Shown: one piece after another, positions 9,094 through 23,536 of the stretch
Numbering within the stretch: position 1 is the stretch's first letter
Layout: the number at the start of each line of letters is the position of its first letter
Source: Haloferula sp. BvORR071
GTDB taxonomy: Bacteria; Verrucomicrobiota; Verrucomicrobiia; Verrucomicrobiales; Akkermansiaceae
Reading direction: 5' to 3'
NCBI RefSeq assembly: GCF_000739615.1
Contig: NZ_BATP01000003.1
Coordinates: 248,001-312,000, forward strand
DNA length: 64,000 nucleotides
Position numbers and translations under genes: made by a program
Notes under the pieces: model-generated
Told to the model about the DNA's origin: nothing
What the model saw: the letters and a program-made list of their open reading frames with translations, nothing else
Database searches by the model: none

Positions 9094-12000
9094 TCAGGGC
9101 GTGCGGAGACGGTAGAAGCCTTGCTGCGATCCGGCCGGGATCGTCATCTCCACGGTGGTGGTGCCGTCAGCTTCGATCATGACCTCGCCTTGATCCAGCC
9201 AGTCGTGGAGATTGAACGAACTCTCGAGATGGAAGATGCCGCCGGCCGCGCCGCTGGCGTGCAGGAGTAAACCGTTCGGACGCACGGGATCCGCTTGAAG
9301 GCTGAGGACCGGCAAGTCCATCGGTCCGCCGCTGACCGAACGTGCCGTGAGCGAGCGCGTAGCAGTCGCGGCCGGATTCACCACGTTGATCGTGATGATG
9401 CCCGCAGCAGAATCCACGCTGCCGTCATTCGCCACGAAGCTGAGGGTGACCGTGCCGACAAAGCCCTTCTTCGGCTTGTAGGTGAAGTTCGGAATCTTGC
9501 CTGCCAGCTTGCCGACGGCTGGTTTGGCGAGCAGGCGATAGGTCAGCGAATCGGAATCGGCATCCGTGCCACCGAGCATCACCGCAACCGGCTTGTTGAT
9601 GTCCGACGTGATCACCCGCGATATCGCCACCGGAGCGCGGTTATTCGGATTCACGACCGAGATCGAGGCCGTGGCTGGCAGCGAACGAATGATGCCATCA
9701 GTCACAACATACTGGAAGCTGTCCTTGCCCTTGAAGCCGGCCTTGGGGGTGTAATTCGAACCCATCCCAATGCCGGATAGAGTCCCGTTCTTGGGCTGAG
9801 TCACCACGATGAACTGGAGCGAATCGCCATCGGCGTCCGTGCCTTCCAAGGGGACGGCACCGGCGGAATTCATGTTCACCACCACGGATTTGGAGACGGC
9901 GGTCGGCCGGGCATTGGTATTCTTCACCACCACTGTCACGGTCGCTGGCGCGGAATCCGAGACACCGTCGGAAGTGACAAACTGGAAGGTATCTGTGCCC
10001 GCAAACTTGGCTTTGGGCTTGTAGACGACGTTGGGAGCGGTGCCAGTAAGTGTCCCGTTTGCGGGACCGTTGGTTACCCGGTAAGCAAGGGGCGCCGACT
10101 CCGGGTCCCAGCCGACCATCTGGATGCTGATCGGTTTGCCCTTCATGACGGCGACCTTCTTGGATTGGGCCTGTGGCTTGATATTCGCCGCTGCCAACAC
10201 GTTGATGCTAACGGTGGCGGATGCGGAATTCAGCGAGCCATCGTTCGCGCGGAAGCTGAAGCTATCGCCGCCCGTGTAGCCGGTGGCAGGCGTGTAAATC
10301 AGACTGGCACCGCTGCCGGAGAGCGTGCCATGGGCCGGGTTGCTGACCACGGAGTAGGTCAATGCGTCGCCATCCACATCGCCGCCCGCAAGCGTGATGG
10401 GAAGAGCTGTGTTGCCCTGAATCGAGTAGGAGGCGGCCGCCGCTACCGGCGCGTCATTGACTGGCGTGACGGTGATCGAGACCGTGGCAGTCGTCGAAAA
10501 GAGCGAGCCATCGCTAACGCGGAAAGTGAAACTGTCAGTGCCGTTGAAGTTCGCTTGGGGAGTATAGGTGCGATTCGCACCGCTGCCCGAGAGGGTGCCC
10601 TTCGTTGGATTCGCAATCACCGAGTAGCTCAAGCTGGCGCCCTCCGGGTCACTGCCGCTGAGCACGATCGCCTTGGCGGTGTCCTCGGCGGTGCTCACCG
10701 ATTGGGCTAGAGCGGTCGGGACTGCGTTGGCCTGGGTCACCGTGATGCTGACGGTGGCAACTCCTGAATCGACGGTTCCGTCGTTCACCTTGAAGGTGAA
10801 GCTATCGCTGCCGATATAGCCGCTGGTGGGAGTATAAGTCCGGCTGGCACCGCTGCCGGAGAGTGTGCCGTTCGCGGGATTGGAGAGGATCGTATAGGTC
10901 AACGGGTTGCCATCCACATCGGTGGCGGAGAGCGTGACCGGCACGGTATTGTTCACGCTGGTGCTCACGGACTGTGCGTTGGCCACGGGAGCATCGTTCA
11001 CCGGGGTGATATTGATGCTGACGGTGGCGTTGGCGGAATTGGTGCTGCCGTCATTCACCCGGAAGACGAAGCTATCGCTGCCGTTGGCATTGGCCGAAGG
11101 CGTGTAAATGACGTTCGGCAGGGTACCGCTCAGGCTGCCCTTCCCCGGGGCAGTGACCACGTTGTAGGTGAGCGCGCTGCCTTCCACATCGCTGCCGCTC
11201 ACGCTGATCGGCAGCGGCGTATCCTCCAGTGTGGATACGGATTGCGCGTTGGCCACGGGCGCATCGTTCACCGGGGTGATATTAATGCTGACCGTCGCGG
11301 TCCCCGATTCGGCGCCGCCATTGCCTACCTTGAAGGTGAAGCTATCGCTGCCGTTGAGATTGGGACCGGGAATAAAAGTCAGGTTCGGCGGCGTGCCGCT
11401 CAGACTGCCTTTGGCGGGTGCGCTCAGGAGCGTGTAGGTCAGAGTGCCGCCGTCTGGATCGGAAGCGGAAAGATTCACCGCCACGTTGGCATCCTCATTG
11501 GTGGTGACAGAGGTGGAATTCGCGATTGGCGTGTCCGCCACCGGAGTGATCGAGATACTGACCGAAACCGTGGCCGAGGTGGCAATGCCGTCGCTCACCT
11601 GGTAACTGAAGCTATCGCTGCCGTTGGCATTGGCGCTCGGGCGATAGGTCAGATTCGGCGCGGTGCCGATCAAGGTGCCCTTGCCGGGATTGCTGACGAT
11701 CCTGTAGCTCAGGGAATCCGCATCGGCGTCGCTGCCACTCAAGGTCGCGGCAACGTCCGTATCCTCCGAGGTATTCAGGGTCAGCGCGTCGGCGACCGGG
11801 GCGGTATTCGGGCTGCCAGGCGTGACAACGCTCAGCTCCGAGGACAACGGGCTGGTTTGGCCGGTGGTATTGTAGGCCACCAGGGCGAAGTAATAGGTCG
11901 TCCCGCCATTCAGGCCGGTGGCGGTGGCGCTGAGGTTTTTCCCCGCATCAACGGTGTAGGGATAGGCTCCGCTGGTGGTGCCGTAGCGCAGGCGGTAGCC

Positions 12001-12171
12001 CGCGATGTTCGTCTCGGGATTGGCGTTCCAAGCGAAGGTGACGGATTCATTGGCGGCGGCGAGAAGCCCCGCCGTCATGGCAAAGAGGGCGGCGGCGCTA
12101 GCGGCTGATTGTCTGAGTGTTTTGGCGGCGACCAAAAGGTTCATCTGCGTTTGGCTGGTGTGCGGTTTCAC
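9094..12171 (-). CDS. Secreted fibronectin-III plus nine cadherin-like repeat protein
   Basis: A 1025-residue protein with an N-terminal signal peptide; translation may start at the ATG for MNLLVAAKTLRQ, ten codons inside. A fibronectin type III domain (about 45-115) is followed by nine tandem cadherin-like/Ig-like repeats of about 90 residues, each with a pattern like NDAPVA...SGSD.DGD.L.Y...NP..GTL.G......Y.P...F.G.DSF.F...DG. The last 80 residues form a short domain ending in GFYRLRTP, a type common at the C-terminus of exported verrucomicrobial proteins. Such proteins act outside the cell in adhesion or matrix formation, often with calcium bound by the Asp-rich loops. No sortase or PEP-CTERM motif is visible. 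It stands alone with a long 5' region of about 680 bp. Confidence 0.82.
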   Translation of the reverse strand: MKPHTSQTQMNLLVAAKTLRQSAASAAALFAMTAGLLAAANESVTFAWNANPETNIAGYRLRYGTTSGAYPYTVDAGKNLSATATGLNGGTTYYFALVAYNTTGQTSPLSSELSVVTPGSPNTAPVADALTLNTSEDTDVAATLSGSDADADSLSYRIVSNPGKGTLIGTAPNLTYRPSANANGSDSFSYQVSDGIATSATVSVSISITPVADTPIANSTSVTTNEDANVAVNLSASDPDGGTLTYTLLSAPAKGSLSGTPPNLTFIPGPNLNGSDSFTFKVGNGGAESGTATVSINITPVNDAPVANAQSVSTLEDTPLPISVSGSDVEGSALTYNVVTAPGKGSLSGTLPNVIYTPSANANGSDSFVFRVNDGSTNSANATVSINITPVNDAPVANAQSVSTSVNNTVPVTLSATDVDGNPLTYTILSNPANGTLSGSGASRTYTPTSGYIGSDSFTFKVNDGTVDSGVATVSITVTQANAVPTALAQSVSTAEDTAKAIVLSGSDPEGASLSYSVIANPTKGTLSGSGANRTYTPQANFNGTDSFTFRVSDGSLFSTTATVSITVTPVNDAPVAAAASYSIQGNTALPITLAGGDVDGDALTYSVVSNPAHGTLSGSGASLIYTPATGYTGGDSFSFRANDGSLNSASATVSINVLAAANIKPQAQSKKVAVMKGKPISIQMVGWDPESAPLAYRVTNGPANGTLTGTAPNVVYKPKAKFAGTDTFQFVTSDGVSDSAPATVTVVVKNTNARPTAVSKSVVVNMNSAGAVPLEGTDADGDSLQFIVVTQPKNGTLSGIGMGSNYTPKAGFKGKDSFQYVVTDGIIRSLPATASISVVNPNNRAPVAISRVITSDINKPVAVMLGGTDADSDSLTYRLLAKPAVGKLAGKIPNFTYKPKKGFVGTVTLSFVANDGSVDSAAGIITINVVNPAATATRSLTARSVSGGPMDLPVLSLQADPVRPNGLLLHASGAAGGIFHLESSFNLHDWLDQGEVMIEADGTTTVEMTIPAGSQQGFYRLRTP
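9370..11811 (-). repeat. Tandem 270-nt coding repeats (nine cadherin-like units)
   Basis: The nine domain repeats are visible at DNA level. The string gctatcg or a close variant recurs at 10261, 10531 (variant), 10801, 11071, 11341 and 11611, exactly 270 nt apart. The middle units are most alike; the three C-terminal units (low coordinates) have diverged. An exact period without indels suggests unit duplication by recombination. Confidence 0.8.
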
Positions 12172-13860: not shown

Positions 13861-14718
13861 ATGAGTCTGCTCAACCGAACCCCGCTGATCGGCCAAGCCC
13901 GGCAGCGGGAACTGCTGAAGTCGGCCACCACCTTCCCCTATTCCGAGACCCCCGAGGGGCCTCTCCACGCGCATTTCTTCGCGCCGCCGAATTTCGAGCC
14001 GGGCGACAAGCGGCCGCTGATCATTTTCTTGCACGGCGGCCTGTGGGATACCGCGATGCCGACGCAGTTCGTGCCGCATTGCCTCTACTTCGCCGAGCGC
14101 GGCGCGGTGACGGCGACGCTGGAGACGCGGGTCTTCTCGACCCACCGGACCGGCCCGATGGAGGCTCTGGCTGACCTGAAGGCCTTCCTCGCGTGGCTGA
14201 AGAGCTACGAGCATCACTTCGGTGTGGATCCATCCAAGGTGGTTCTGGCGGGTGCGCTCGGCGGTGCCTTCCTAGCCCTGGCGATGACCTTGCCAAAGCT
14301 GCAGAAGGATGAGCTACCGCCGGTCTATTCCCCTGCCGCTCTGCTGCTCTTTGCCTCGCTGCTGGACACGACCACGCGGGCGATGATCGAGCGCTTCCCG
14401 GATACCTCGACGGCCAAGCGCCTGAGCCCGCTGAAGGCGGTGCGGCGCAAAGCGATGCCGATGATGCTTTTCCACGGCAAGAAGGACCGCGTGGCACCCT
14501 TCGCGCTGGTGGAGAAATTCATCAAGTCGATGCGCTGGCGGCGCAATAAGATCGAGCTCGTGGACTTCGAGAACGCGGACCACACCTTCTTCAACTTCAA
14601 CGTCTCCGAGCTCTACTACGAGGTCAGCATCAAGGCCGCGGACCAGTTCTTGGTGGATCTCGGGTTGCTGGAGCCGGCACCGCCGGTGGAGGAAGGGATC
14701 GTCGAGCCATTCGATTGA
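13861..14718 (+). CDS. Alpha/beta hydrolase-fold protein lacking the nucleophilic serine
   Basis: 285 residues from the ATG at 13861. The fold is indicated by LIIFLHGGLWD (oxyanion HGG), the strand-turn-helix VVLAGALGGAFLAL, the acid loop FHGKKDRVAP and the histidine loop ENADHTFF. The family nucleophile elbow is GxSxG, but here it reads G-A-L-G-G, with Leu (CTC) in place of Ser; the bases at 14251-14265 support this reading. Asp and His are kept. It may therefore be a non-catalytic member, or another residue may act. It is probably cytoplasmic because no signal peptide is visible. It converges with aldH, 33 bp between stops. Confidence 0.78.
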   Translation: MSLLNRTPLIGQARQRELLKSATTFPYSETPEGPLHAHFFAPPNFEPGDKRPLIIFLHGGLWDTAMPTQFVPHCLYFAERGAVTATLETRVFSTHRTGPMEALADLKAFLAWLKSYEHHFGVDPSKVVLAGALGGAFLALAMTLPKLQKDELPPVYSPAALLLFASLLDTTTRAMIERFPDTSTAKRLSPLKAVRRKAMPMMLFHGKKDRVAPFALVEKFIKSMRWRRNKIELVDFENADHTFFNFNVSELYYEVSIKAADQFLVDLGLLEPAPPVEEGIVEPFD

Positions 14719-14751
14719 TTGAGGATTGTGCGATTCGGAGGTGTCCGAGGA

Positions 14752-16140
14752 TCAATGCCGCTCGATGAAGCGAAAGAAGTTGCGGAGCCTTTCCACGGTG
14801 GCTGTGGCGGGCGGGTAGCGGAACTTCAAATCCGGCCACAAGTGGCGGCTCATCACGACTCTTTCGCGGGTGAAAGTGTCGAAGCTGGCTTTCCCGCGAT
14901 AGCGGCCCATGCCGCTGGCCCCGACCCCGCCGAAGGGCAGCGCCGGACTGGCGATGTGGACTACGGTGTCATTGAAGCACACGCCGCCGGAGACCGTGTC
15001 TGAAACGATCTTCGCGCGGACGGCTTCGTCGGAAGTGAAGGCGTAGATGGCCAAGGGCGGAGGCTGGCTGTGGAACTGCTCCAATGCTTGGTCCAGATTC
15101 GCGCAAGCAACCACCGGCAGGATGGGACCGAAGATCTCTTCCTGAAGGGACGGAGAATCCGGCGGAAGGTCCAGAAGGATGGTAGGCTCGATGGTGAGCG
15201 TCTCAGGGTCGTGTTTGCCGCCGTGTGCGATCCTGCCATCCGCGAGGAAGCGCAGGACCCGATCGAAGTGTCGACGGTTCACGATCTTGCCCAGTTCTCC
15301 TACCCCGAACGATTCGAATGCCTTGGCGAGCGCCGCGACGAGCGGCTCGTGAAGGCTTTGCTCGACCATCACGTAGTCCGGTGCGACGCAGGTCTGTCCG
15401 GCGTTCAGATATTTGCCCCAGGCGAGCCGCCTCGCGATCACATCCATCTGTCCCAAGAGCCGTTCGCGCTCACCCGGGCCCGGAAAGATCAAGGCGGGAC
15501 ATTTCCCGCCCAGCTCAAGGGTGACGGGAACCAGTTTGTCCGCGGCCGCCGTGAGGATTTTCCTGCCGGTCGCGATCCCGCCGGTGAAGAAGATATGATC
15601 GAAGGGCTCGCTCGCCAGCGATTCGCCGATCTCTGCACCACCCTCGACCACCGCGACTTGGGCTGGATCGAAGGCGTCCGCGATCAAGCGAGTGAGCGCG
15701 GCACTGGTCTCCGGCGCGAGTTCGGAAGGCTTGAGCACGGCGGTGTTCCCCGCGCCGAGAGCCCCCACCAAAGGCGTGAGCATGAGATGGACCGGGTAGT
15801 TCCATGGTCCGATGATCAATACCGATCCGCAAGGTTCACGGATCACTTTGGCCCTCCCCGGCCAAGCCAAAAGCGGCACCGGGCGGCGCTGCGGCTTCAT
15901 CCAGCCTTTGAGATGCCGCAGGACATGGAACAGTTCGTCCCGCACCATGCGGATCTCCGAGGTGTAGGCTTCCAGGGGCGATTTCCTGAGGTCGGCACGG
16001 AGCGCGTCTAGTAGCTCTGCTTCATGACGATCCATGGCCGCGGCGAAGGCCCGCAGTGTGTCCCGGCGGTCCTTCAGGGCGCGGGACTTGCCTGATGCCA
16101 GCCAAGCCCGCTGCGTTTCGAGAATCTGGGAAATCGCCAT
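14752..16140 (-). CDS. aldH: Aldehyde dehydrogenase, class-3-like; probable C30 carotenoid aldehyde dehydrogenase
   Basis: 462 residues from the ATG at 16140 (an in-frame ATG at 16212 would add 24 residues reaching towards crtP). NAD(P)-dependent aldehyde dehydrogenase motifs are complete: GPWNYP with N114, the FTGG segment near 185, catalytic E209 in LELGGKCPA, nucleophile C251 in NAGQTCVAPDY, and the EEIFGP block. The short class-3-like form matches enzymes that oxidise long-chain and carotenoid aldehydes. It is divergent from crtP (92 bp between starts). In staphyloxanthin synthesis AldH turns 4,4'-diaponeurosporenal into the carboxylic acid that CrtQ then glycosylates, so the location strongly suggests that role. 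Carotenoid specificity is inferred from context only. Confidence 0.85.
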   Translation of the reverse strand: MAISQILETQRAWLASGKSRALKDRRDTLRAFAAAMDRHEAELLDALRADLRKSPLEAYTSEIRMVRDELFHVLRHLKGWMKPQRRPVPLLAWPGRAKVIREPCGSVLIIGPWNYPVHLMLTPLVGALGAGNTAVLKPSELAPETSAALTRLIADAFDPAQVAVVEGGAEIGESLASEPFDHIFFTGGIATGRKILTAAADKLVPVTLELGGKCPALIFPGPGERERLLGQMDVIARRLAWGKYLNAGQTCVAPDYVMVEQSLHEPLVAALAKAFESFGVGELGKIVNRRHFDRVLRFLADGRIAHGGKHDPETLTIEPTILLDLPPDSPSLQEEIFGPILPVVACANLDQALEQFHSQPPPLAIYAFTSDEAVRAKIVSDTVSGGVCFNDTVVHIASPALPFGGVGASGMGRYRGKASFDTFTRERVVMSRHLWPDLKFRYPPATATVERLRNFFRFIERH

Positions 16141-16232
16141 CAATGCCGGACCTTCGGCGGCCTGCCGGGAATCTCTAGCAAAAAGCTGAAGTCGGGCGAT
16201 AGTCGCCGCCAAATGCCCCCGACGACCTCCCC

Positions 16233-17717
16233 ATGAGCAAGCAAGTAATCGTTCTCGGTGCCGGTTTGGGCGGGATCTCGGCGGCCGTCTCGCTGGTCCA
16301 AGCGGGCTATCGTGTGAGCATCCACGAGAAGAACGGGCAGATCGGGGGGAAGCTGAACATGCTGAAGACGGGCGGCTACACCTTTGACCTCGGCCCCTCG
16401 ATCCTGACGCTGCCGCACATCTTCGAGCGGCTTTTCGAGCGCTCCGGGAAGAAAATGGCGGACTACATTCCGATCCGGACGGTGCGACCGCATTGGCGGA
16501 ATTTCTTTGAGGACGGCGAGGCGATCGACCTGCATCCAGATCCGCAGGTGATGGCGGCGGAGGCCCGCAAGGTCGGGGAGGATCCGGCGGCGGTTGAGCG
16601 CTTCCTGGAGTATTCCTATCAGCTCTTCGATCTGATAAATGACGGCTACTTTGAGAAGGGGCTCGATACCGCGAAGGATTTCTCGCGGCACTACGGCTTC
16701 TTCCAGTTTCCGAAGTTCGACTTCTTCCGGACCATGCACAGCGGCGTGGCGCGCTACCTGAAGTCGCCCAAGATGCGGGACATCTTCGACTACTTCATCA
16801 AGTATGTCGGCTCCTCCGCCTACAGCGCGCCGGCCTTTATGAACTGCTTGCCGGCGATCCAGTTCCGCTACGACCTGTGGTATGTGGACGGAGGCATGTA
16901 TGGAATCGCCGAGGGGCTCGGGCGGCTTATGGATGAGCTGGGGATCAAGGTGAACCTGAATAGCCCGGCGGCCGAGATCTTGCGTGAAGGAGCGACCGTC
17001 AAAGGAATCGTCACCGGGGACGGAGCCTTCCATCCGGCGGATATCGTGGTATCGAATGTGGAGGTTATCCCCGCTTATCAGCAACTGTTAGGCGAAGACG
17101 AGAGCTTCATGAAGGATCTGGCGAAGTATGAGCCGGCGTGCTCCGGGCTGATTCTGGATCTAGGGCTGGATAGGACCTATCCTCAGCTCGCGCATCACAA
17201 CTTCTTCTTCTCCAGTGATCAGAAGAATCACTTCCGCAGCGTCTTCAAGAAGCGCGAACTACCGCAGGATCCCACGATTTACCTGGTGGCCGCCTCTCGA
17301 ACGGACCCTACGGTTGCGCCGCCCGGATGTGATACGCTCAAGATCCTGCCGCACATTCCGTATATCGATGATGAGCATCCCCTCACCCGCGCTGATTACG
17401 AGGTCTTCAAGGAGCGCGTGCTGAACAAGCTGGAGCGAATGGGTCTGCACGATCTCCGCAAGCGCGTGGTGGTCGAGCACATGTGGACTCCGTTGGACAT
17501 CCGCGAGCAGTATAACTCGAACAAAGGCTCGATCTACGGAGTAGTTTCGGACCGCTTCAAGAACTTCGCCTTCAAGGCCCCGAAGCAGAGCACGAAGTAT
17601 CCGAATCTCTTTTTCGTCGGCGGCTCCGTGAATCCCGGTGGCGGGATGCCGATGGTGGTGCAGTGCGGGCAGAACGTGGCTAACAAGATCGTGGCATGGG
17701 ACAAGAGTGGATCATAG
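16233..17717 (+). CDS. crtP: CrtP-type C30 carotenoid oxidase (diapophytoene desaturase family)
   Basis: 494-residue FAD-dependent amine-oxidase-fold enzyme of the phytoene desaturase family. The dinucleotide-binding motif is VLGAGLGGISAAVS (residues 7-20), and the C-terminal FAD motif is FVGGSVNPGGGMPM. From memory of the family, it is much closer to staphylococcal CrtP (4,4'-diaponeurosporene oxygenase, forms the terminal aldehyde) than to CrtN. Shared stretches include FDLGPSILT, FIKYVGSS, AHHNFFF and IYGVV. It is the first gene of a translationally coupled run: its stop overlaps the crtQ start by 22 nt. It is membrane-associated in known systems. Substrate chain length (C30 rather than C40) is inferred from the neighbours. 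Confidence 0.88.
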   Translation: MSKQVIVLGAGLGGISAAVSLVQAGYRVSIHEKNGQIGGKLNMLKTGGYTFDLGPSILTLPHIFERLFERSGKKMADYIPIRTVRPHWRNFFEDGEAIDLHPDPQVMAAEARKVGEDPAAVERFLEYSYQLFDLINDGYFEKGLDTAKDFSRHYGFFQFPKFDFFRTMHSGVARYLKSPKMRDIFDYFIKYVGSSAYSAPAFMNCLPAIQFRYDLWYVDGGMYGIAEGLGRLMDELGIKVNLNSPAAEILREGATVKGIVTGDGAFHPADIVVSNVEVIPAYQQLLGEDESFMKDLAKYEPACSGLILDLGLDRTYPQLAHHNFFFSSDQKNHFRSVFKKRELPQDPTIYLVAASRTDPTVAPPGCDTLKILPHIPYIDDEHPLTRADYEVFKERVLNKLERMGLHDLRKRVVVEHMWTPLDIREQYNSNKGSIYGVVSDRFKNFAFKAPKQSTKYPNLFFVGGSVNPGGGMPMVVQCGQNVANKIVAWDKSGS

Positions 17718-18736
17718 CGGGCGTGGGTGTCGTGCAGTGGCTGGCATCGCTACGATTGTTGGCGCGCCTGGCGATTCCGCTTGCGGGGGCGGGTGGTCGC
17801 GGCATGACCCGGGAGGTCTCGATTATCATTCCCGCGCGGAATGAGGCCGCTAACTTGCCCCGCCTGCTGAAGTCGATCGCGGCCCAAGGCGTGCAGCCGC
17901 GCGAGGTGATCGTGGTCGATGATGATTCGGATGATGGCACGGCAGAGATCGCGGCTTCCTTCGGGGCGCGCGTGATTCCTTCTCGACCCTTGCCGTCCGA
18001 TTGGCGCGGCAAGTCGTGGGCTTGCGCGCAGGGAGCCGATGCGGCGGAGGGGCGACTGCTGCTGTTCGTGGACGCCGATTGCCGCTTTGAGGAGGGCGGC
18101 TTGGATGTGATTCTCAGCCGCTATCCCGGCGGGGCATTTGCAGTCTGCCCTTATCATTCGGTCGAGCGGATCTACGAAAATCTCTCCGCCTTCTTTAACT
18201 TGATCATGGTCGGCAGCACTGCGCCGCTCGGACTCTTCGGCCAGTGCCTGTTGGTGGATGGGGAGAGCTACCACAGGGCGGGTGGTTACTACACTGTCAG
18301 AGCGGAGATTCTCGAAAACGTGAAGATCGCGAGCCGTTTCCGCGCCGCAGGGGTGAAGACATACAGCGTGGCAGGAAGAGGGATGATTTCGTTCCGCATG
18401 TATCCCGACGGGATTGCTTCTTTGATCGAGGGCTGGACCAAGGGCTTCGCCAGCGGAGCTGCCGCGACGCCCTTACCAACGCTGGTGCTGATATCGGCTT
18501 GGATCGGCGGGCTGATCCTCGGGATCGTCGCACCCTTCGTGGTGTCGTGGGGTTGGCTGGTTTATCTCGCATTCGCACTGCAGTGCGTCGTGATGCTACG
18601 GCGGATCGGGAACTTTTCGCCGCTAGCCGGACTATTCTATCCGATCGTGCTGCTGTTCTATCTGGTCGTGTTCGTCCGGTCGCTGGGGCCTGCTGGCAAA
18701 AAGGCTACATGGAAGGGTCGCAGCCTGCATGCATGA
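17696..18736 (+). CDS. crtQ: CrtQ-like carotenoid-acid glycosyltransferase (GT2)
   Basis: 346 residues. An N-terminal hydrophobic segment (about 5-30) is followed by a GT2 domain with VSIIIPARNEAANLP, the nucleotide-binding VVDDDSDDGT and the metal-binding FVDADCRF. Three or more C-terminal membrane segments lie in about residues 255-335. This layout matches CrtQ, the 4,4'-diaponeurosporenoate glycosyltransferase, which puts a sugar on the carboxyl end of the C30 carotenoic acid at the inner membrane. The start lies inside the crtP 3' end and the stop overlaps the crtO start by 8 nt, so the three are translationally coupled. A generic membrane GT2 is the alternative, but the neighbours make CrtQ much more likely. 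Confidence 0.85.
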   Translation: MGQEWIIAGVGVVQWLASLRLLARLAIPLAGAGGRGMTREVSIIIPARNEAANLPRLLKSIAAQGVQPREVIVVDDDSDDGTAEIAASFGARVIPSRPLPSDWRGKSWACAQGADAAEGRLLLFVDADCRFEEGGLDVILSRYPGGAFAVCPYHSVERIYENLSAFFNLIMVGSTAPLGLFGQCLLVDGESYHRAGGYYTVRAEILENVKIASRFRAAGVKTYSVAGRGMISFRMYPDGIASLIEGWTKGFASGAAATPLPTLVLISAWIGGLILGIVAPFVVSWGWLVYLAFALQCVVMLRRIGNFSPLAGLFYPIVLLFYLVVFVRSLGPAGKKATWKGRSLHA

Positions 18737-19205
18737 GCTTCCAACAGCTTGGGTTACAGTCCTGAACGCGGCCGGTTTTCCGGTGCTGCAGCTCGGCATC
18801 GCTTGGGTTTTCACGCGTCTTCCGGCAGCGTGGTTCGAGCGGGCTCCCCGAAATGGCAATTCGTTGCCGCGCTTCTACGAGCGGGCGCTGCTAATCAAGC
18901 GTTGGAAGGATCTGGTGCCGGATGGCGCAAGTTGGTTCAGCGGTGGCTTTGGCAAGGCGGCGCTGACCGAAGGCAGTAGTTGGAACTACTTGCGCCGGTT
19001 TCGGGCCGAGACGATTCGTGGAGAATCGTGCCACTGGACAGCGCTGCTATTCATTCCGGTGTTCTTTCTTTGGAATCCTGTCTGGGCTGATTGGGTGATG
19101 GCTGGGGCATTCGCCGTCGCGAATCTTCCCTGCATTGCGATCCAGCGCTACAACCGGGGCCGCATCGACCGACTCCTGGGAAAAGCCGTTAGAGCAGCGC
19201 GCTGA
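18729..19205 (+). CDS. crtO: CrtO-type glycosyl-carotenoate acyltransferase
   Basis: 158 residues with two to three membrane segments. It carries the recognisable family core: LPRFYERALLIKRWKDLVPD, then SWFSGGFGK, RAETIRGESCHW, and near the C-terminus ANLPCIAIQRYNRGR. This is the small integral membrane family of glycosyl-4,4'-diaponeurosporenoate acyltransferase (CrtO of Staphylococcus), which esterifies the sugar of the glycosyl carotenoid with a fatty acid. The length is as expected (about 160). It overlaps crtQ upstream, and at its 3' end it overlaps the convergent crtN gene by 17 nt. Note that the name crtO is also used for an unrelated beta-carotene ketolase. Confidence 0.88.
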   Translation: MHELPTAWVTVLNAAGFPVLQLGIAWVFTRLPAAWFERAPRNGNSLPRFYERALLIKRWKDLVPDGASWFSGGFGKAALTEGSSWNYLRRFRAETIRGESCHWTALLFIPVFFLWNPVWADWVMAGAFAVANLPCIAIQRYNRGRIDRLLGKAVRAAR

Positions 19206-20706
19206 CCAGATCAGCTTTTTGGTATGCCACTCCACGCTCATCGCAAATGAGATTCGATGAGATGCGGCCGCTTTCATAGATCGTGGGCAGGCCGCTGCCG
19301 GGGTGAGTGCCGCCACCGACAAGATAGAGGTTCTCGTAGCCGCGCATGCGGTTATGCGGACGCAGGTAGAGCATCTGGTCGAGGGTGTGGGCAAGATTGA
19401 AGGTCGCGCCCATGAAGACATCCAGCCCATCCCGCCAGGAGGCGGGCGTGATCATCCGCTCGGCGACAATGTGCCGCCGGAGATTTTTGAGAGCGGTCCT
19501 TTGCTCGATGCGGTCCAAGACCATTTCGCGGTATTCCGGGCCGTAGGAGTTCCAGTCGAGGCCGTGGCGTGTATTGATGGTGGGGACCAGTACGTAAATG
19601 CCGGACTTTCCCGCTGGAGCAACATGAGGATCCAGGGCCGAGGAATTACGGACGTAAATGGACATGTCCTTCGAAACCTCCCGCTCGCCTTGGATCTCCA
19701 GGACGTTGCGGTGATAGTCATCAGCGAACATCACGTGATGGTGCGCTTGATCCGCATAGATCCGGTCGAGCCCGAGATAGAGCATGAAAGTCGAGCAGGA
19801 GAATTTCTTGCGCTCCAGATTGGCCTTCGGCACGGTACGTTCACCCATGAGCGAAGTCGCAGCATGGGCGTAGTCGGCATTCGTGATCGCGTCGTCGCAC
19901 TCGACTCTCTCGCCGTCTTCCAAGACCAGTCCAGTCACGCGGTTTCCGCTGAAACGGAGTTCTTTCACGGGCGCGCCCAAGCGAAGCTTGCCGCCGTGTT
20001 CCTCGAAGACCTTGGCCATCGCTTGCGAGATCCGGCACAGACCGCCTTGCACGTGATAAATGCCGAACTTGTATTCGGTGTAGGATAGGATGCTGAAGAG
20101 GGCCGGGCAGTTCCAAGGCGACATGCCCAGATACTTCGCTTGGAAGGTGAAGGCCAGCTTCAGCCGGTCATCGGTAAAATAGCGGTCTAGCACGTCCACG
20201 ACCGAATCCCTCGTGGCAACGTAGGGGAGTGCCTTGAGCAAGGTGCTGCTAAGGTAGGCGCTCAGCTTGTGGTAGGGCCGCTGAAGGCAAGGGTAGATCG
20301 TCCTCATCTTGCGGGCGTGGTCCGCCATGAAGCGCCGGAAGCCATCGGCATTTCCGGGGAAGACCCGCTCGATGTTTTCCGCCATTCGGACCGGGTCGGA
20401 GCTCGTTTCGATTGATGTCTCACCCCAAGAAAGGCGGGTCATCGGGTCGAGCTGCCGGAAATCCAAATAGTCCTCGGAATGCCGCCCTGCCTCCTCAAAC
20501 GCCTCATCAAGGGTAAACTTCTGGTGTAGGAAGGTCGGCCCGGTATCGAAGGAGTAGCCGTCGAAAGCGAGTTCTGCGTTCCTGCCGCCTACCCGGTCGT
20601 GCTTTTCATAGATCGTCACGTCGAAGCCCCGGCGGGCCAAGATCATCCCTGCCGTCAGGCCGCCAGGGCCGGCTCCGATGATGGCAACACGATTCTTTTC
20701 CGGCAT
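19189..20706 (-). CDS. crtN: CrtN-type diapophytoene (dehydrosqualene/squalene) desaturase
   Basis: 505 residues of the phytoene desaturase family with an N-terminal FAD motif AIIGAGPGGLTAGMI (residues 8-22), the GGRN turn and the C-terminal YLVGGGTHPGSGLP block. Segments such as FDTGPTFL, FQAKYLGM, HHVMFADDYHRN and GIYVLVPT resemble CrtN more than CrtP. CrtN desaturates the C30 backbone to diaponeurosporene or diapolycopene. It is on the strand opposite to crtPQO, converging with crtO (17-nt overlap), which is unlike the staphylococcal crtOPQMN order. No crtM is in the window, so the substrate must come from elsewhere: dehydrosqualene, or squalene made by HpnCDE. It is divergent from the M16 peptidase gene with 121 bp between starts. 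Confidence 0.86.
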   Translation of the reverse strand: MPEKNRVAIIGAGPGGLTAGMILARRGFDVTIYEKHDRVGGRNAELAFDGYSFDTGPTFLHQKFTLDEAFEEAGRHSEDYLDFRQLDPMTRLSWGETSIETSSDPVRMAENIERVFPGNADGFRRFMADHARKMRTIYPCLQRPYHKLSAYLSSTLLKALPYVATRDSVVDVLDRYFTDDRLKLAFTFQAKYLGMSPWNCPALFSILSYTEYKFGIYHVQGGLCRISQAMAKVFEEHGGKLRLGAPVKELRFSGNRVTGLVLEDGERVECDDAITNADYAHAATSLMGERTVPKANLERKKFSCSTFMLYLGLDRIYADQAHHHVMFADDYHRNVLEIQGEREVSKDMSIYVRNSSALDPHVAPAGKSGIYVLVPTINTRHGLDWNSYGPEYREMVLDRIEQRTALKNLRRHIVAERMITPASWRDGLDVFMGATFNLAHTLDQMLYLRPHNRMRGYENLYLVGGGTHPGSGLPTIYESGRISSNLICDERGVAYQKADLVSALL

Positions 20707-20827
20707 GCGCGGCTAGTCTATGCAGAAACCCGGGTGCCACAAGGGGCAGGCAACAAGAATTCGGCAAAGATTCAAACGCCTGGACTCCGGACTCGCCGCC
20801 GCTGCTGTCATCTCCCAAGCTCTGCGC

Positions 20828-23536
20828 ATGCAGCAGCGCGCCTTGCCGTTCTTGGTCATCGCCATTTCCTTGTCACCGGCGCATGCCGAAATCGGAGGCT
20901 TCAAGGAGATCCGTTCGCTGGGCGGGATCACCGAATACCGGCTGGATGCCAACGGGCTCACAGCGCTGCTGATGCCTGAGAAGTCGGCGCCGGTGGTCAC
21001 TTACATGACGACCTTCCGGATCGGCTCGCGGAACGAGAGCTATGGCACGACCGGTGCGACGCACTTGCTTGAGCATCTGATGTTCAAGGGCACGGCCAAG
21101 CACAACAAGGAGGCGGGCAATGGCTACGACCAACTGCTGGAAAGCACCGGCGCGGAACTGAACGCGACCACTTGGCTGGATCGCACGAATTACTTCTGCA
21201 CCCTGGGTCCGCAGGACCTGCCGGTGGTGGTGGAACTGGAGGCCGACCGGATGCGCAACCTGCGGCTGCGCGAGGAGGACCGGCGGCCGGAGATGACGGT
21301 GGTACGGAATGAATTCGAGCGAGCGGAGAACGATCCCGAGACCGCACTGACCACCGAATTGTGGGCGACCGCTTACCTCGCCCACCCTTACCGGCACAGC
21401 GTGCTTGGCTGGCGCAGTGATGTGGAGAAGGTGCCGATCGAGAAGCTGAAGGCTTTTTACGATACCTACTATTGGCCGGACAACGCGACGATCTCGGTGG
21501 TCGGTGACTTCGAAGCGGACAGCGTGCTGAAGTTGATCGCAGAGAAGTATGCAGTGATCCCGAAAGCGCCCCATGCGATCCCCGAGGTCTATACCGAAGA
21601 GCCCGAGCAAACCGGACCACGGCGGGTGATGGTCAAGCGACCGGGTGAACTGGGTGTCGTGAGCATCGCATTCAAATCGCCGACCGGCCGCGATGCGGAC
21701 TATCCGGCGCTGACGGTGCTCTGCGACTTGCTCTGCAATGGCAAGGGCAGCCGCTTATACAAGACGCTGACCGATGAGGGGCTGACCACCGATGTGAGCG
21801 CCTATTCCGAGTTCACGCGCGATCCTTCGCTGCTGACGGTCTCCGCCGAGATCACGCCGGACAGCGATCCTGCCACAGTGGAACGCAAGATCCACGAGGT
21901 GCTGGACAAGCTGATCGCGGGAGGCGTGAGCGACAAGGAGGTGAAGATGGCAATTGCGCGTCTCAAGGCAGAGCAGGCCTTTGCACGCGATGGCTCGCAG
22001 GCGATGTCCAACGATCTCTCGAACTGCATTTCCGTGGGCGACTGGACGCTCTATCTGCGCGAACAGGAAACGCTGGAGGCGGTGACCGCGGCCGATGTGC
22101 AGCGGGTGGCGAAGAAGTGGCTGGTGAAGGAGCGCAGCACCACCGGCTGGTATGTGCCGAAGAAAGAGAAGGAGGAAGAAGGCAAGAAGAATGAGGCCGG
22201 TGAGGCCGCGCCGCAGATCTCGGCGACTCCCTTGCAGCAGCAAGCGGATTTGATTCTTCCGGAGATTGCCCCTGCCCCACCGATGGAGGTGGCGAAGATC
22301 GCGCCGCGGGTCAGCCGGGGGCGCAGCGGCGGACTCGATCTGTTAGTCTGCCCGACGGGCGTGAAGGAGGTTGTCACCATCAGCGGTGGCTTCCCCTGCG
22401 GTGCTCCGGGCGAAGAGGCCCTGGCGGCCTTCACCGCGCGCCTGCTCGACAAGGGCACGACCATGCACGATTCCGATGCCATCACCGCGATGCTGGATGC
22501 TGTGGGCGCGACGATGGAGTTCACCGCCGCGGACGGTAATCTGAATTTCTCGGCGCGCTGCCTGAAGAAGGATCTGCCGCTGGTGATTTCACTGCTGGGC
22601 GAGCAACTGCGCACACCGGCCTTCAAGAAGGAAGAGATCGCGAAGGAGCGGACTCAATTGCTGGCGGACACGGCGCAGACTCGCTCCGACACCTCGGCGC
22701 AGGCGGCGATCGCCTTCAGCCGGGCGGCTTTCCCGGCGGGACATCCGAATCGCGACGCGACCACCGATGAGACGATCGCGGCGCTGAAGAAGATCCAGCG
22801 TGGCGAATTGGAGGCATTCCACAAGAAGTGGTTCGGCCCCGCGGCAGCGACGCTGGTGGTGGTCGGAGATGTTGAGCCTGCAGCCTGCCAAGCCGAGGTT
22901 GAGAAGGCTTTCCAAGGTTGGAGTGGCGGCCTGCCGCATGCGACGGCGGCAGTCGCACCTGCGCTCGGCAGCGCGCTGGATGTGAAGGTGGCGGTGCCGG
23001 GCAAGGAGAGCGCAAGTGTCTTGCTGGGACAGCCGGTTGGACTGAATTTCCGCGATCCCGACGTGCTGCCGCTATCGCTGGCGACGGCGGTGCTCGGGCA
23101 GGGCTTCACGAGCCGCCTGCTCAGCACGGTGCGCGATGCGGAGGGGCTGACCTATGGACTCGAGGCCGGGATGTGGGGAGACACAACGGTGGACGGAGCC
23201 TGGGAAATCGAGTCGACCTTCGCGCCGCAGTTGGTGGAGGAAGGATTGAAGTCGGTCCGGCGCGAGCTGGAAAAATGGCACGATGGCGGGCTGACTCCCG
23301 CTGAGCTGGCGTATCGGAAGAGTGTGCTGATTGGTCGGCACCGGGTGGGCCTGGCGACGACGACGAATGTGGCGGGAGCGCTGCTGGCGACGGTGCGCCG
23401 TGGCCTGCCGCTGAGCTGGCTGGATGATTACCCGGCGCAGGTATCGGCGCTGACCCTGGAGCAAGTAAACGAAGTGGTGAAGCGGCGGCTCGATCCGGCG
23501 AAGATGATCACGGTGAAAAGCGGCAGCTTGCCGTAA
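20828..23536 (+). CDS. Exported M16-family zinc metallopeptidase (two-domain)
   Basis: I start at the ATG at 20828, which gives a signal peptide MQQRALPFLVIAISLSPAHA; the frame is open further upstream but that extension is not protein-like. The 902-residue product has two M16 halves. The first carries the inverted zinc motif HLLEH (H79, E82, H83) and the downstream acidic segment with EMTVVRNEFERAE. The second half (from about residue 500) lacks HxxEH and is the non-catalytic half, as usual for long PqqL/YmxG-type proteins. A charged linker rich in Lys and Glu (KEKEEEGKKNE) separates them. It probably degrades peptides in the periplasm. It is followed by a small exported protein 70 bp downstream. 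Confidence 0.88.
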   Translation: MQQRALPFLVIAISLSPAHAEIGGFKEIRSLGGITEYRLDANGLTALLMPEKSAPVVTYMTTFRIGSRNESYGTTGATHLLEHLMFKGTAKHNKEAGNGYDQLLESTGAELNATTWLDRTNYFCTLGPQDLPVVVELEADRMRNLRLREEDRRPEMTVVRNEFERAENDPETALTTELWATAYLAHPYRHSVLGWRSDVEKVPIEKLKAFYDTYYWPDNATISVVGDFEADSVLKLIAEKYAVIPKAPHAIPEVYTEEPEQTGPRRVMVKRPGELGVVSIAFKSPTGRDADYPALTVLCDLLCNGKGSRLYKTLTDEGLTTDVSAYSEFTRDPSLLTVSAEITPDSDPATVERKIHEVLDKLIAGGVSDKEVKMAIARLKAEQAFARDGSQAMSNDLSNCISVGDWTLYLREQETLEAVTAADVQRVAKKWLVKERSTTGWYVPKKEKEEEGKKNEAGEAAPQISATPLQQQADLILPEIAPAPPMEVAKIAPRVSRGRSGGLDLLVCPTGVKEVVTISGGFPCGAPGEEALAAFTARLLDKGTTMHDSDAITAMLDAVGATMEFTAADGNLNFSARCLKKDLPLVISLLGEQLRTPAFKKEEIAKERTQLLADTAQTRSDTSAQAAIAFSRAAFPAGHPNRDATTDETIAALKKIQRGELEAFHKKWFGPAAATLVVVGDVEPAACQAEVEKAFQGWSGGLPHATAAVAPALGSALDVKVAVPGKESASVLLGQPVGLNFRDPDVLPLSLATAVLGQGFTSRLLSTVRDAEGLTYGLEAGMWGDTTVDGAWEIESTFAPQLVEEGLKSVRRELEKWHDGGLTPAELAYRKSVLIGRHRVGLATTTNVAGALLATVRRGLPLSWLDDYPAQVSALTLEQVNEVVKRRLDPAKMITVKSGSLP

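Follow-up and report, generated by a model that had tools for sequence, protein, structure and literature searches.

Which carotenoid would a verrucomicrobial bacterium make with a set of genes resembling those of staphyloxanthin synthesis, and from what precursor? The question is raised by five adjacent genes, aldH, crtP, crtQ, crtO and crtN, in a stretch of 64,000 nucleotides from Haloferula sp. BvORR071 (contig NZ_BATP01000003.1, positions 248,001 to 312,000; hereafter the window). Sequence comparisons give us good confidence that these genes constitute a functional tailoring cluster for a predicted C30 carotenoid, the precursor of which would be supplied from unlinked loci. The product of the cluster is very probably a C30 carotenoid decorated with a sugar and a fatty acid.

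The five assignments, made in a preliminary description of this DNA, were upheld by profile searches and a phylogenetic tree. AldH matches the Aldedh profile (PF00171, 264 bits), keeps the ELGGK and GQTC motifs, and has as its nearest solved structures 6k0z (368 bits) and a class-3 dimeric aldehyde dehydrogenase (ALDH) that prefers nicotinamide adenine dinucleotide phosphate (NADP; 366 bits). CrtQ is a family 2 glycosyltransferase (GT2; PF00535, 81.5 bits), 33.5% identical to CrtQ of Staphylococcus equorum and 40.6% identical to a GT2 adjoining crtP in Cytobacillus. CrtO matches PF18927 with 99.2 bits against a cut-off of 27.3 and is 26-31% identical to staphylococcal CrtO; an alignment of nine sequences, two of them staphylococcal, has 19 invariant columns, including the motifs ETxRxExxH and NxPCIxxQRYNR. 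The locus therefore has what we take to define staphyloxanthin-type tailoring, namely a CrtP orthologue, a PF18927 CrtO and a GT2 CrtQ that adjoins both. CrtP and CrtN score 347 and 444 bits with the crtI_fam model (TIGR02734, cut-off 238), and they are the only two CrtI-family genes above cut-off in the genome of the strain. As no CrtN- or CrtP-specific model was found among their Pfam matches or the best 25 of their 38 and 68 NCBIfam families, a tree was required to place them.

Reference sequences for the tree, all taken from annotated plasmids, were the crt genes of S. equorum and S. xylosus, the crtP of Cytobacillus, the crtN-crtP pairs of Azospirillum, Gluconobacter and Limimaricola, and the C40 CrtI of Pantoea, Paracoccus and Thermus. 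A first tree took 26 of 96 loci, 8 of which were then removed, and the careful tree has 52 rows (the 96 loci include duplicates, since L109, L122, L174, L177 and L180 coincide with contigs of G loci). In the 52-row tree, CrtP forms a clade with staphylococcal CrtP (support 100/99), consistent with its identity of 46% to CrtP of S. equorum and S. xylosus, as against 27% to Pantoea CrtI. CrtN forms a clade with the alphaproteobacterial CrtN (100/100), and is 46% identical to Azospirillum CrtN, 30% to staphylococcal CrtN and 32.6% to Pantoea CrtI. A separate clade (100/100) is made up of the three C40 CrtI references, and both CrtN and CrtP fall outside it. A position inside that clade had been named in advance as an outcome that would count against a C30 product, and the C30 rather than C40 reading is supported by these placements. 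An assignment of CrtN to the staphylococcal lineage was rejected, since grouping it with staphylococcal CrtN without the alphaproteobacterial sequences failed the approximately unbiased (AU) test (p-AU 7.7e-6). The clade that we refer to as squalene-route CrtN contains three alphaproteobacterial references, one of which, the Limimaricola crtN-crtP pair, directly adjoins two squalene/phytoene synthase (SQS_PSY) genes and a flavin adenine dinucleotide oxidoreductase gene that are probably hpnC, hpnD and hpnE. In the window, no such genes are linked.

The likeness to staphyloxanthin synthesis that was originally proposed thus holds for CrtP, CrtQ and CrtO and fails for CrtN. The crtOPQMN clusters on the S. 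equorum and S. xylosus plasmids encode homologous CrtP (a sister lineage), CrtQ and CrtO, for which we infer the same roles. In contrast to them, the window has no crtM, as had been noted, and no crtM-crtN pair of the staphylococcal lineage, given that no SQS_PSY gene lies in the cluster and CrtN comes from another lineage. The plasmid genes O, P, Q, M and N are all encoded on one strand, whereas aldH is divergent and crtN antisense in the window. The alphaproteobacterial clusters of Limimaricola, Azospirillum and Gluconobacter share the CrtN clade and have a CrtP-family oxidase with GT2 and ALDH genes adjoining, but their CrtP and GT2 are only 28-36% identical to those of the window, and their acyltransferase is of the lysophospholipid acyltransferase family rather than a CrtO.

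A mechanical listing of open reading frames bears out the previously described positions, overlaps and orientations of the five genes (Table 1); the listed aldH frame runs further up, to a TTG at 16212. Overlaps are 22 nt between crtP and crtQ, 8 nt between crtQ and crtO, and 17 nt between the convergent 3' ends of crtO and crtN. The overlaps suggest that crtP, crtQ and crtO may be translationally coupled, and the geometry of the divergent aldH/crtP region makes it a probable shared promoter region. A scan of 14600-21000 for sigma-70 promoters gave no match, where 1.3 were expected in shuffles. This would fit a relict or mis-assembled cluster without activity, but verrucomicrobial promoters may differ from the sigma-70 consensus, all five reading frames are intact, and in two congeners (G178 and G307) the full set of five is kept in an identical layout, with CrtP 81-82% and CrtN 78-81% identical. 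We consider an inactive relict extremely improbable.

The arrangement recurs in relatives beyond chance. Among 387 genomes sampled from the phylum, 18 contain PF18927, 17 of them above cut-off (G300, with one stop and a sub-cut-off match, was not taken further); none was found among the listed members of g2, a genus of the same family. A scan of named genomes with a CrtP alignment matched at least 588 stretches, of which 553 were confirmed. The best 80 loci, selected by CrtP and often short (33 are at least 20 kb), were kept and are the basis of the counts that follow. They include aldH in 69 cases, crtQ in 62, crtO in 61 and crtN in 51; all five genes are present in 36 loci, and in 18 of the 33 longer ones. 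The order crtP, crtQ, crtO is collinear in 59 of the 61 loci that have all three, and aldH lies divergent and upstream of crtP in 64 of 69. Convergence of crtN with crtO is less general (9/38). Of the 51 CrtN, 34 have their best match among the alphaproteobacterial references and the other 17 on the branch of the window itself. Record titles are mostly verrucomicrobial, with a few Planctomycetota, Kiritimatiellae, Hydrogenedentes, Thermoanaerobaculia, Omnitrophota and others; binning errors may account for some of the non-verrucomicrobial titles. At L108, L131, L147, L154, L158 and L175, crtP and adjacent genes are found in records with the title Akkermansia muciniphila, which may be misassigned. 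The presence of aldH, which had been regarded as making the set more complete, is not special to this cluster, as an ALDH gene also adjoins the crt genes in Azospirillum, Gluconobacter and Limimaricola. The S. equorum plasmid likewise has an ALDH gene near its crt cluster (26.5% identical over 226 residues), with a putative role in the pathway.

We infer that the precursor is made at another locus. HpnCDE had been suggested as an example of such a source, and the genome of the strain (7.8 Mb, 96% complete) does not bear this out. The best matches to HpnE are CrtP and CrtN themselves (34.7 and 33.3 bits), followed by one of 28.1 bits, against a cut-off of 283, and neither of the two SQS_PSY proteins encoded in the genome is called HpnC. 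There is no hopene cyclase above cut-off, and two polyprenyl synthases are present. Both SQS_PSY genes are on contigs other than that of the cluster. The first protein is HpnD-like, scoring 253 bits with the HpnD model versus 171 with the best CrtB model; the second is best fitted, weakly, by the squalene synthase (SQS) model. In the strain's genome (C37, L208:7856-9955) and in all three stretches of kin that were compared, one and the same gene precedes the HpnD-like one; by eye it looks like a signal peptidase.

Of 19 genomes examined for precursor supply, 14 have at least two CrtI-family genes plus CrtO, with crtN and crtP on different contigs in G327 and G297; G190, G274 and G289, which have PF18927 and no CrtI-family gene at E <= 1e-30, were left out. 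Typed by best match, the pair of HpnD-like and SQS-like genes is present in nine of the 14. In G228, an HpnD-like gene is flanked by genes for HpnC and HpnE that score above cut-off, and G068 has an SQS-like gene inside the crt locus. Reference crtM, hpnC, hpnD and hpnE were the best match of no open reading frame in the best 80 named loci, and a linked HpnD-like or SQS-like gene was found in four of these. The pair is found near crtO in L115, L117 and L137, which are among the 80, and in L038 (G237), with the HpnD-like gene within about 1.4-3.8 kb of it, a linkage that slightly favors the pair as the supplier.

The same linkage would also fit a role of the HpnD-like protein as a CrtM (dehydrosqualene synthase), so that CrtN would act on dehydrosqualene to give diaponeurosporene and, ultimately, a mono-acid ester similar to staphyloxanthin. 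The best match of the HpnD-like protein in the PDB is a chain named CrtM (8is6, 127 bits), and CrtP, CrtQ and CrtO belong to the staphylococcal type. We nevertheless regard this staphyloxanthin-style route as unlikely, because CrtN is outside the staphylococcal lineage and, in a tree of the synthases, the HpnD-like proteins cluster with their counterpart in G228 (96/82) rather than with staphylococcal CrtM, although several very long branches weaken that tree.

A number of observations weigh against a C30 cluster fed by unlinked squalene synthesis. With 253 bits, the HpnD-like protein misses the HpnD cut-off of 278.6, although its counterpart between HpnC and HpnE in G228 does so too (245 bits for the portion supplied), and the SQS-like protein scores 69.6 bits against a cut-off of 286.8. 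Three of the 14 genomes (G032, G139 and G297, which are 98, 96 and 89% complete; loci L046, L048 and L049) have the cluster and no detected squalene/phytoene synthase. The SQS-like protein of G068 as a query found nothing credible in these three, while recovering the G068 gene and both genes of G000; the synthase may instead be missing through assembly gaps. Both SQS_PSY genes are kept in two congeners that lack crtO, G251 (no CrtI-family gene at E <= 1e-30) and G319 (one such gene), which indicates that neither gene is specific to the pathway and that they have other roles as well. The alphaproteobacterial CrtN references are from other species than the characterized CrtN of Methylorubrum extorquens, to which we assume they are equivalent. 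Finally, the placement of staphylococcal CrtN is weakly supported (82/29), and a tree in which the CrtN clade is sister to CrtI, without staphylococcal CrtN, is kept by the AU test (p-AU 0.40).

This last result would also suit a C40 pathway, in which one SQS_PSY protein would be a phytoene synthase, CrtN would act as CrtI and the product would be an acyclic C40 glycoside. CrtN is about equally similar to Pantoea CrtI and to staphylococcal CrtN, and CrtB models find the SQS_PSY proteins with sub-cut-off scores. However, CrtN lies outside the CrtI clade, the orthology of CrtP to known CrtP is clear, the CrtO family takes its name from glycosyl-diaponeurosporenoate, and the HpnD-like protein prefers the HpnD model to that of CrtB. 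In addition, there is no credible lycopene cyclase: the sole match above cut-off (24.5 versus 23.4 bits) covers positions 1-144 of 380 of the model within a frame of 660 amino acids, and the same model finds matches in Escherichia coli. A C40 product is thus very unlikely.

For the C30 tailoring cluster that we prefer, we propose the following route. A C30 hydrocarbon, most likely squalene and less likely dehydrosqualene, would be provided by the unlinked HpnD-like and/or SQS-like enzyme. CrtN would desaturate this hydrocarbon to a diapo-carotene, probably diapolycopene, and CrtP would oxidize the terminal methyls at one or both ends to aldehydes, which AldH would convert to carboxylates. CrtQ would then join the carboxylate to a sugar (glucose or xylose) as an ester, and CrtO would acylate the sugar. 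Each reaction, the use of squalene as substrate and the oxidation of one or both ends are predicted from characterized relatives, with the order following the roles of the S. aureus enzymes as given in the accessible part of a published account (PMC8502411) and as applied to M. extorquens in another (PMC10448405).

Given the lineage of the desaturase and the known pigment of Rubritalea, a glycosyl ester of diapolycopenoic or diapolycopenedioic acid is a more likely product than staphyloxanthin itself. Xylosyl esters of diapolycopenedioic acid from Rubritalea squalenifaciens were reportedly described by Shindo et al. in 2007 and 2008. Similarly, Santana-Molina et al. are said to have reported squalene-route C30 carotenoids of Planctopirus limnophila in PNAS in 2022. 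The available portions of the literature describe the R. squalenifaciens pigments as acyl-xylosyl diapolycopenedioic esters in which the sugar is 2-acyl-D-xylose (PMC9598406, PMC10830979), and place this organism in the Verrucomicrobia (PMC8502411). It therefore belongs to the same phylum and makes the product class predicted here, acylated glycosyl esters of C30 carotenoic acids. P. limnophila, likewise a member of the Planctomycetes-Verrucomicrobia-Chlamydiae group, uses squalene for C30 carotenoids (PMC12078418) and obtains it from HpnCDE (PMC10448405), according to the sections available, in contrast to the lack of HpnE and of an HpnC call here. In M. extorquens, squalene is turned into an acyl-glucosyl diapolycopenedioic acid by a CrtN (30.4% identical to that of staphylococci), a CrtP, a glycosyltransferase and an acyltransferase from another family, with no CrtO homologue found there, as stated in the accessible part of that study (PMC10448405).

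A further gene accompanies the cluster in many relatives. It encodes a tetratricopeptide repeat (TPR) protein of about 250-300 amino acids, with a signal-like start (judged by eye) and repeats that were profile-checked in two members. Of the best 80 loci, 48 have this gene no more than 400 nt away from crtP, and 50 have it somewhere in the locus. It is absent from the window, and the L117 copy as a query found no match in the genome of the strain, in a search that had no positive control. We speculate, with low confidence, that Verrucomicrobiota and their neighbors share a hybrid C30 glycocarotenoid system, composed of a squalene-route CrtN, Firmicutes-type CrtP, CrtQ and CrtO, a divergent ALDH and, in the 50 loci with the gene, a secreted TPR protein, which might serve to carry or organize the pigment outside the cytoplasm. 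In this family, an HpnD-like and an SQS-like enzyme might together supply the system with squalene without any need for HpnC or HpnE, and in some kin the precursor might come from an unrecognized synthase or from imported squalene.

Table 1. Positions of the cluster genes and of other features mentioned in the text; numbers without a locus prefix refer to the window.
Feature	Position	Strand	Start or size	Assignment or remark
aldH	14752-16140	-	ATG start, read from sequence	class-3-type aldehyde dehydrogenase (aldehyde to acid)
aldH/crtP intergenic region	16141-16232		92 bp	divergent; from geometry
crtP (CrtNb)	16233-17717	+		terminal-methyl oxidase of C30 carotenes
crtQ	17696-18736	+		GT2 glycosyltransferase of carotenoic acid
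crtO	18729-19205	+		glycosyl-4,4'-diaponeurosporenoate acyltransferase family
crtN	19189-20706	-		C30 carotenoid desaturase, alphaproteobacterial (squalene-route) lineage
TPR protein gene	L176:2776-3558	+		example in relatives
TPR protein gene	L117:9123-9995	+		example in relatives
TPR protein gene	L121:9007-9984	+		example in relatives
TPR protein gene	L046:5522-6316	-		example in relatives
GT2/CrtO-like gene pair	L195:3889-5474			Picosynechococcus plasmid
large repeat protein	9094-12171	-		many similar repeats with GSDSFxFxVxDG-like stretches, cadherin/Ig-like look, FN3-like start (by eye)

Relatives of CrtO also occur apart from the pathway. The PF18927 homologues at L041, L044 and L045 are those of the three genomes set aside above (G190, G274 and G289). 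On a Picosynechococcus plasmid, a gene for a CrtQ-like GT2 (34%) overlaps a CrtO-like gene (36%) with no other annotated carotenoid gene within 5 kb, suggesting that the glycosyl-acyl module may serve other substrates.

The product class, the enzymes and the squalene route are already known, and the cluster is a further case of a known pigment type. A survey from 2010 lists the Verrucomicrobia as carotenogenic, with no sequenced genome at that time, in the part of the text available (PMC2889829). We found no description of this cluster in Verrucomicrobia in the portions seen of the open-access literature on this phylum with CrtN, carotenoids or squalene, beyond which one may exist, nor staphyloxanthin together with Akkermansiaceae in the open-access literature searched. 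The locus provides candidate genes for the glycosylated C30 carotenoids whose chemistry in Verrucomicrobia (Rubritalea) has been known since 2007, and this gene set occurs widely in the phylum. Its study raises two testable questions, namely what supplies the C30 precursor in the absence of HpnC and HpnE, and what role is played by the secreted TPR protein encoded near crtP.

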